DNA of 64,000 nt from Planctomycetota bacterium (GTDB lineage: Bacteria > Planctomycetota > Planctomycetia > Gemmatales > Gemmataceae). Both the position numbers and the translations under genes were made by a program. The DNA is taken from assembly GCA_016195405.1 (NCBI GenBank), contig JACPZP010000031.1, forward strand, positions 1-64,000, read 5' to 3'. How positions within the stretch are numbered: the stretch's first letter is position 1; every line of letters starts with the position of its first letter. Below the pieces are notes generated by a model. It saw only the letters and a program-made list of their open reading frames with translations, was not told the origin of the DNA and made no database searches. Below are positions 3,606 through 46,399 of this stretch, piece after piece.

Positions 3606-4943
3606 TTATTTCTTCTTGGCTTCCAACTCCTTGAGAAGTTCATCCACGGCGCGATCCATAGCTTCGCCGCGAACGTTGCGATAGCGTATCACGCCGTCGC
3701 CGTCCAATACATAAATGGTCGGCCAACTCTGGACGTGCCAGGCCGCGGAGATCGGCCCGCCGGTGCCTTTGGGTCCGTTCCAGAAAGACCGCCAGGTGAT
3801 TTTTTCATCCTCCAAGGTCTTTTTCAGCTTTTCCCGATCCTGGTCGCTGTTGACGCCGATCAGAGCAAAAGGACTGTTCTCCAGCCGTTTCACGAGCGAC
3901 CGCTCGTGCGGGTACATGGCCCGGCAAGGCGGTCACCAATGCCCCCAGAAGTCGATCACCACCACCTTGCCACGGTAGTCCGACAGCTTGAATGTCTTGG
4001 TGTCGAGGTCCTCGGCTTCGATTTCCATGGCGGGCCGGCCGACGGTCAAGTTCTTCAGCGTGAACTGCACGTCCTTGACTTGGCTGGCCAGGTCGGCATG
4101 GTTTTCGCCAACATGCTTCAGCAAGTCTTCGATCTCCTTCAGCAATTTGCCGGCATCTTTGTCCTTACGCTGATAGCTGCGTTCATACTGGGACCGCAAG
4201 TTTTGGCTGAGCGCGAGACTAACCTGGCCATGCATCTCCTTGGGGCCTTTTTCCCGCAGCGTCCGCAGCACTTTGCCCACGCCGGGCGAATCGGATTGCT
4301 CCAGCTGCCGCAGGTTGTTCCGCACCATGTTCTTGGCTTCCTTCGCGGCCGGATCATCGGCGTATTTCTGGGCGAATTCGCTCAAAGGAAGTAAGGAGTC
4401 GGCGGTCAGCTCGTAAAATCGGTCCGTGATTTTCTGTCTTGCCTCTTCGGTTTTGGCCGCGGGGAATTGCTTGAACAACTCCTTTTGTTTGGTCCCCAAA
4501 GATTCCTTCAGTTGTTCCAATATGCTTTGGGCTTCCGAAGCCACCCGCACCGTCAAAGTGTAGTCACCCACTCCTTTGAAGGCGGTGGCGATGATCCGGT
4601 ACGTGTCGTCCTTGGGCGCCTTGAAAATGATCCGGGCGTTCGGAAAGCCGCCGCCGTCGTCATCCTCGGCCAGATTTTTCCCCGCGGAGTCTTCAAGGCG
4701 AAGGTAGGGATCCAGCTCTTGCGCATTCTTGGTGATCATGTCGATCACGTAGTTCGCTCCGGCCTTCATCTTGTACTCATGGACCTTGTGCGGATTCTTG
4801 CGGAGCTTGTCCGCCGGGTCGTCCTTGGCCAGGGTGCCTTCGATTTTGAAGACCTTGTCGTTCCCATTCTTCTTGTCGCCCCCGGCCCAGGCTGCGGGAA
4901 CCAGAATCAGCCCGGCCAGGCTCCAAACAATGAGCCGCTGCAT
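3606..4943 (-). CDS. Secreted TlpA-type thioredoxin, probable selenoprotein (UGA = Sec337)
   Basis: Read through one in-frame TGA (3933-3935), this gene encodes 445 residues. The ATG at 4943 is chosen because GGAGG lies 8 bases upstream and a signal peptide follows directly (MQRLIVWSLAGLILV, cut near AWA). Residues about 30-135 resemble a PPC-type beta domain, with the DPYLRLEDSAG and GDYTLTV motifs. Residues 140-300 are helical and charged. Residues about 305-445 are a redoxin/TlpA domain. The TGA falls exactly where TlpA proteins have the first catalytic Cys (W-[TGA]-P-P-C), and the domain continues without a frame change through IGVNSD and the cis-Pro SWPTIYVLD. A SECIS-like hairpin follows inside the gene. 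An automatic caller would report two fragments (3606-3917 and 3933-4958). The likely role is periplasmic thiol-disulfide or peroxide chemistry. Confidence 0.85.
3891..3908 (-). promoter_or_regulatory. Candidate bacterial SECIS hairpin
   Basis: In the mRNA sense this is CACGAGC-GGUC-GCUCGUG, a perfect 7-bp stem with a GGUC tetraloop. The loop lies 32-35 bases after the UGA, inside the 16-37 base range described for bacterial SECIS apical loops. Its GGU matches the loop bases that SelB reads in E. coli fdhF. It is within the coding frame, as bacterial SECIS elements must be. Confidence 0.75.
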
Positions 4944-5102
4944 GGAAGTGTCCTCCAAAGGTGATGAGCCAATGGAGCCAGCCTATGCCGTGGAGGAGGA
5001 AAACGCAAGCTGCGAGACACCGTGGGATTTGCCAGAGAGCCCTCTACCGTCGGTTCAGACTGCCGTCAACCCATCATATCCAAATATGAGTATCGAGCAA
5101 AA

Positions 5103-45856: not shown

Positions 45857-46399
45857 CTAGATGGAATAATCGAGCGGATCGACCACGTGTTCGTGGGCTG
45901 CTTCGATCTTAGCTGCCAAATCCGGGCGCGGCAGGTGCCGCCGGCCCAAGGCGCGCAGGCCAAAATATGCCAGCCAAGCGGCTGCGACGGCCAGCAGGCT
46001 ATAAAAAGCCGCTGCGACGTCACTATTGGAATCAACCAAGGACCGCACGCCGACGTACAAGAGAATCAAGCCGAAGGCGATCTTTAGCTTGGGAACGTGC
46101 TCAAGAGGTATCTGTTCGACGATATGGGCGCCGATATAAGCGCCCGTAGCCACACCGGCCGCGACCAGTGCGACAAACCTGAGGTCGGCGGAGGGGACGA
46201 TTCCGCTGGTGAGGTACTTCCACGTGGAGGGGAGGAACACGGGCAGCGTCAGAATGGCCAACGTCATCCCGGCGGCGTGGCGATAGTCCTTGACGCCGAT
46301 CAACCAGATTAATCCCGGCGTCAGCAAAATGCCGCCGCCGATTCCCAACATGCCGCTGATGATTCCAACGCCCAGCCCCAGCAGAATGAAAAGCAACAT
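45857..46399 (-). CDS. Half-size TauE/SafE (TSUP) membrane protein
   Basis: This 180-residue protein has the TSUP motif GIISGMLGIGGGILLTPGLIW at its N-terminus and five or so TM segments. Full-length TSUP exporters have two such repeats and 240-300 residues; this has only the N-terminal one plus extra helices. It may work as a dimer or be truncated. The last 25 residues are hydrophilic. TSUP proteins export sulfite, sulfoacetate or similar anions. It lies 9 bases from the lipoprotein gene's stop (convergent) and 21 bases downstream of the GT2 stop on the same strand. Confidence 0.8.
   Translation of the reverse strand: MLLFILLGLGVGIISGMLGIGGGILLTPGLIWLIGVKDYRHAAGMTLAILTLPVFLPSTWKYLTSGIVPSADLRFVALVAAGVATGAYIGAHIVEQIPLEHVPKLKIAFGLILLYVGVRSLVDSNSDVAAAFYSLLAVAAAWLAYFGLRALGRRHLPRPDLAAKIEAAHEHVVDPLDYSI

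Follow-up and report, generated by a model that had tools for sequence, protein, structure and literature searches.

Selenoproteins with a thioredoxin fold and a U-x-x-C or U-x-x-U active site (U, selenocysteine [Sec]) are a known kind. Those with PF00578, PF08534, or cd02966 domains have been catalogued (PMC13188914 Table 1, PMC9312934, PMC2398784), including UxxC and UxxU thiol:disulfide oxidoreductases of the Prx-like PF00578 type (PMC13188914 Table 1) and Prx-like 1 (pfam00578, UxxC) from the Global Ocean Sampling survey (PMC2398784). Planctomycetes with Sec machinery were also already known (PMC4807772).

The gene described here encodes a protein that resembles the Prx-like selenoproteins in its top Pfam match (PF00578, E = 2e-19, C-terminal domain), its UxxC motif, and the presence of UxxU forms in its family. 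It differs from them, when compared by description, in belonging to a planctomycete subfamily with a helical N-terminal part, a PPC-like domain in two paralogues, and a single, nearly invariant SECIS. The thiol-disulfide isomerase-like (cd02966, UxxC) and redoxin-family (PF08534, UxxC) selenoproteins (PMC13188914 Table 1), which are known mainly from metagenome surveys and are likewise compared by description, share the combination of a TlpA/ResA-like thioredoxin fold with UxxC. The UGC-type ResA-like/TlpA selenoproteins (NCBIfam NF041054, WAxxUGC) have the thioredoxin fold and a ResA-like domain in common with it, but the motif here is U-x-x-C rather than U-G-C, and the protein scores 26.6 bits with that model against a cut-off of 300. 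SelL and SelL-related proteins (UxxU, diselenide) are resembled by a sister clade that has UxxU and, downstream, a single hairpin that could act for both UGAs. However, a UxxU protein of the same genome (L054:1306-2601) reaches only 21.1 bits with NF040769 (cut-off 120), its sequence is TlpA/ResA-like, and the UxxU clade lies inside this family. The solved Cys-containing structures of ResA, TlpA, CcmG, and DsbE agree in fold and active-site position but have Cys in place of Sec and lack PPC-like or helical N-terminal domains.

No curated NCBIfam model claims these proteins, and no paper on the planctomycete subfamily was found in the literature; a member may have been listed earlier in table S9 of PMC4807772. 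The initial annotation, made from the sequence of the locus, did not place the architecture in a described selenoprotein family. An undescribed planctomycete subfamily with a UxxU sister clade is the more novel reading; novelty was somewhat overstated in the initial annotation, because UxxC/UxxU selenoproteins of the PF00578/TlpA type had been catalogued (PMC13188914 Table 1).

The window, the whole 64,000-nucleotide stretch of planctomycete DNA that was analysed (contig JACPZP010000031.1, positions 1 to 64,000), carries the gene on its minus strand (Table 1). The frame is interrupted once, by a TGA in the context VVVIDFWGHW-U-PPCRAMYPHERSLVK, and ends with TAA at 3608-3606. The lone TGA, its location at the first Cys of W-C-P-P-C, and the numbering of Sec337 and Cys340 had all been given correctly in the initial annotation.

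Table 1. Features of the predicted selenoprotein gene and its product in the window
Feature	Position	Strand	Details and basis
Predicted selenoprotein gene	3606..4943	-	445 residues plus TAA stop; Sec is residue 337
Shine-Dalgarno-like GGAGG	4952..4956	-	8 nt before the ATG at 4943; read from sequence
Probable Sec-pathway signal peptide, residues 1-20 (MQRLIVWSLAGLILVPAAWA)	4884..4943	-	Inferred from sequence
PPC-like beta domain, approximately residues 32-136	4536..4850	-	Pfam PF04151, AF2 model, Foldseek
All-helical domain, residues 137-299, common to many homologues	4047..4535	-	AF2, alignment
ResA/TlpA-type thioredoxin domain, residues 300-445	3609..4046	-	PF00578, PDB sequence and fold matches
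UGA predicted to be read as Sec337, first residue of the motif in W-U-P-P-C	3933..3935	-	Frame, homologues
Putative resolving Cys340 of U-P-P-C	3924..3926	-	Cys in 19/19 tabulated UxxC genes
Candidate SECIS hairpin CACGAGC-GGUC-GCUCGUG	3891..3908	-	7-bp stem, apical loop GGUC at 3901-3898; 31 nt from UGA to loop

An open frame on both sides of a TGA is by itself weak evidence, because 55 TGA codons in this window of 60% GC are flanked by at least 70 open codons on each side and thus join long frames. What goes beyond chance, and by sequence comparison makes a strong case, is the combination of homology across the TGA, purifying selection downstream of it, and a conserved RNA hairpin. Taken together, the evidence indicates that the in-frame TGA almost certainly encodes an active-site Sec in a thioredoxin-like protein that is probably secreted. 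The fuller reading, in which we have high confidence, is that of a ResA/TlpA-type thiol-disulfide oxidoreductase that presumably faces the periplasm and whose nucleophilic Cys is replaced by Sec (W-Sec337-P-P-Cys340), inserted at the UGA by means of the SECIS.

A paralogue on contig C143 of the same genome has TGA at the same codon and is 72% identical over residues 220 to 445. Over the 108 codons downstream of the TGA, the comparison of the two genes gave a dN/dS of 0.156, as is expected of translated codons. Among 95 same-family genomes, many relatives contain one or two in-frame TGAs, and dozens of homologues from different planctomycete families have TGA at this very codon. In one group the TGA replaces the first Cys of the motif (UPPC, UGPC, UTHC, UTAC, UGSC, UPAC, and others); in a second group both motif positions are TGA (ULTU, UPTU, UGGU, UGFU, and others). 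Relatives free of TGA mostly have Cys in this column. Thus, the expectation that relatives would have Sec or Cys there was borne out, the sole, inactive exception being a WGGPW sequence in genome G088. A search for related loci in named genomes returned only one close relative.

The aligned Sec genes have a common hairpin, CACGAGC-GGUC-GCUCGUG, that begins 24 nt after the UGA. Every aligned Sec gene on which the model was built has it, and the Cys relatives in the same alignment comparison lack it. Stem positions are paired in 93.7% of the cells of the aligned Sec genes. The hairpin varies too little for more than slight covariation: in L069 a compensatory double change turns G-C into C-G, the only one found, and other sequences have G-U variants. 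The SECIS of Escherichia coli fdhF likewise has GGUC at its apex. Codon usage in the hairpin is frozen, with CGG for Arg and TCG for Ser in 28 of 28 Sec genes each, compared with 32% and 25%, respectively, in those genes overall, counts that come from related genes and are therefore not independent draws. Other conserved residues in the 28 genes show variation at synonymous sites, except for one Ile column.

The hairpin agrees on all four points with a published model of the bacterial SECIS (PMC13188914 section 5), having a 4-nt loop that starts with GG, 7 bp, a distance of 31 nt from the UGA, and a free energy of -10.5 kcal/mol. In the UxxU genes the corresponding distance from the second UGA is 22 nt, which is also within the range of the model, so that one hairpin could serve both UGAs. 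The SECIS becomes clear only by comparison. Plain folding of the region after the UGA yielded an unconvincing structure (z of -1.4), and when the 48 nt following the UGA of the window gene were folded in isolation a different pairing was preferred; this competing pairing would be expected to be opened by a ribosome that has halted at the UGA. No Rfam family matched the hairpin region. Among the homologues, one locus with TGA at the motif (L112, G064:C171:2206-2253) has an AGUU loop in place of GGUC (CACGAGC-AGUU-GCUCGAG), and a Planctomycetota homologue with FWGFWUGPC (L079:3005-3052) does not have the GGUC hairpin at the usual place.

If the TGA were instead an ordinary stop, the product would be a secreted PPC-helical protein of 336 residues, and what follows would be either a remnant in decay or a separate small gene that starts at Met343. 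A table-11 reading does end at the TGA, and there is an open reading frame with an ATG downstream (3606-3917). However, such a stop would split the thioredoxin fold right at the active site, the part beyond the TGA is under the purifying selection noted above, and this codon is TGA in dozens of genes from many families, with the SECIS hairpin after each aligned one. We therefore regard termination at this codon as very improbable.

The genome is a 6.86-Mb draft in 214 contigs, and the genes for Sec insertion sought on the suggestion of the initial annotation (selA, selB, selC, and selD) were all found. The tRNA-Sec scored 74.8 bits and was called by ARAGORN as tRNA-SeC with anticodon tca; selA scored 563 bits and selD 294 bits. 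The selB gene (339 bits) is split across two contigs: its C-terminal part adjoins selA where contig C127 ends (46147-46347 of 46401), and its N-terminal part lies at the start of C166. With the sel genes, the Sec/Cys column, and the SECIS in agreement, the original proposal of a probable selenoprotein with Sec at the catalytic Cys is supported.

tRNA-Sec was found in 77 of the 95 genomes of the same family, so that its presence alone does not tell which genomes carry this gene. In G049 and G094, tRNA-Sec, selA, and a full-scoring selB are all absent, and the matches listed include no TGA copies. Three genomes (G020, G089, and G093) contain TGA genes and selA, with tRNA-Sec missed. In G039, a 95% complete draft, TGA genes and selB are present, and tRNA-Sec and selA were missed, likely because of assembly gaps. 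The TGA genes of G039 are G039:C24 and G039:C155 (L127 and L125). Two tRNA-Sec genes each were observed in G001, G028, and G052.

It is equally hard to maintain that the UGA is read as something other than Sec, whether by Trp or Cys suppression or through a general change of the code. TGA code changes occur in some bacteria, and the TGA here adjoins a Trp, but the genome has a complete Sec system, the TGAs stand at redox-Cys columns and are followed by a SECIS, and other genes in the window end normally at TGA.

Profile searches of the PDB matched the C-terminal domain to ResA, TlpA, and CcmG, and Foldseek agrees on a ResA/TlpA fold. The domain has W-[CU]-x-x-C at the start of a helix, and P408, which is invariant in the alignment, is likely the cis-Pro of the thioredoxin fold. 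Scores with the curated subfamilies fall below those needed (ResA, 64 of 170 bits; TlpA, 50 of 230; DsbE, 49 of 123); the protein is related to ResA, TlpA, and DsbE, yet it is not an orthologue of any of them. The helical domain was modeled with AF2 pLDDT values mostly above 90. The N-terminal PPC-like domain proposed by the initial annotation is tentatively supported by a Pfam PF04151 match for approximately residues 32 to 136 that falls below the cut-off (E = 5e-4, 21.3 bits; cut-off, 25.9), an eight-strand AF2 model built from two sequences (pLDDT 75), and a Foldseek match of that two-sequence model to a solved PPC domain (5sv5, TM 0.62/0.70). The model also matches beta domains of subtilases and collagenases. 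Among the aligned members, the window gene and its C143 paralogue, both of this genome, are the only ones with the PPC-like domain fused on. The N terminus resembles a signal peptide, judged by eye.

These features suggest how the protein might be made and function. During translation, SelB with GTP and Sec-tRNA-Sec would bind the in-frame SECIS hairpin, and with the hairpin loop 31 nt past the UGA, Sec would be inserted and termination avoided. The mature, presumably exported protein would consist of the PPC-like beta domain, the helical domain, and the thioredoxin domain. Given the presumed substrates and direction of electron flow, the Sec337 selenolate would react with envelope proteins whose thiols are oxidised or disulfide-bonded, and Sec337 and Cys340 would then form a selenenyl-sulfide. 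Re-reduction may be carried out by a membrane reductase of the DsbD/CcdA type; a DsbD-type transmembrane protein is encoded in the genome, on C118. As a guess, the PPC-like domain binds a partner or the envelope.

Beyond the initial annotation, the analysis found the SECIS, six more genes of this kind in the genome, and the UxxU sister clade. A 12-nt core of the hairpin, GAGCGGTCGCTC, has seven matches in the 6.86-Mb genome, and the reversed control has none. Five matches are known TGA genes of the family, one (on C185) is a miss that is not a selenoprotein gene, and one revealed a new TGA thioredoxin gene on C172 (L129:1389 onwards, plus strand; G000:C172:16888-16935), which encodes a lipoprotein-like TlpA domain with FWAEYUGPC and was detected through the SECIS core alone. 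At least seven selenoprotein genes of the family, with nine Sec codons, are thus present, including a G-U hairpin variant on C111: five UxxC genes (C21, C143, C84, C111:12862, and C172) and two UxxU genes (C148 and C111:2263). The UxxU sister genes (L053:598-1839, minus strand, and L054:1306-2601, plus strand) each have two in-frame TGAs and one shared hairpin. No clue to function came from the genes that flank the paralogues on C111. An error converting TGC or TGT to TGA, conceivable in a 214-contig draft, is effectively ruled out by the seven genes of this genome, and the many in others, with TGA and the same downstream hairpin.

UxxU genes were also found in G020, G028, G041, G042, G063, G068, G069, G089, and G093. 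A covariance model of the 48-nt region, which contains coding similarity so that its matches are not independent proof of a SECIS, detected 29 of the 95 same-family genomes at E<=0.001, a set in which the weaker matches, where read, were mostly Cys homologues. In a sample of the phylum, 73 of 392 genomes, from 52 genera, matched at E<=1e-8; 29 of these loci were fetched, 28 were readable, and all 28 had TGA at the motif. In a tree of 91 thioredoxin domains, picked by search matches rather than at random, all 17 UxxU rows group in a single clade (100/99), and Sec and Cys forms interchange several times.

These results probably reflect a family of envelope selenoproteins with a thioredoxin fold that spans the phylum, is largely unannotated, and has one nearly frozen SECIS. 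In this reading, a single lineage also replaced the resolving Cys to give UxxU diselenide enzymes whose two UGAs (22 and 31 nt) are decoded by one hairpin, so that one genome carries paralogues of the Cys, UxxC, and UxxU forms together. Such paralogues offer a natural series for evaluating what Sec, or a diselenide, contributes to an envelope oxidoreductase. Standard gene callers cut all such genes at the active site, so that this set of planctomycete redox enzymes is likely missing or misannotated, and the conserved hairpin is a simple tool for finding them. In genome G075, two family genes, one with TGA and the other without it, lie in tandem (G075:C269:40442-42403). The exceptional gene of G088 (L109, G088:C139:38437-38481) has kept the hairpin and lost both Sec and Cys from its active site (W-G-G-P-W), possibly a SECIS fossil.
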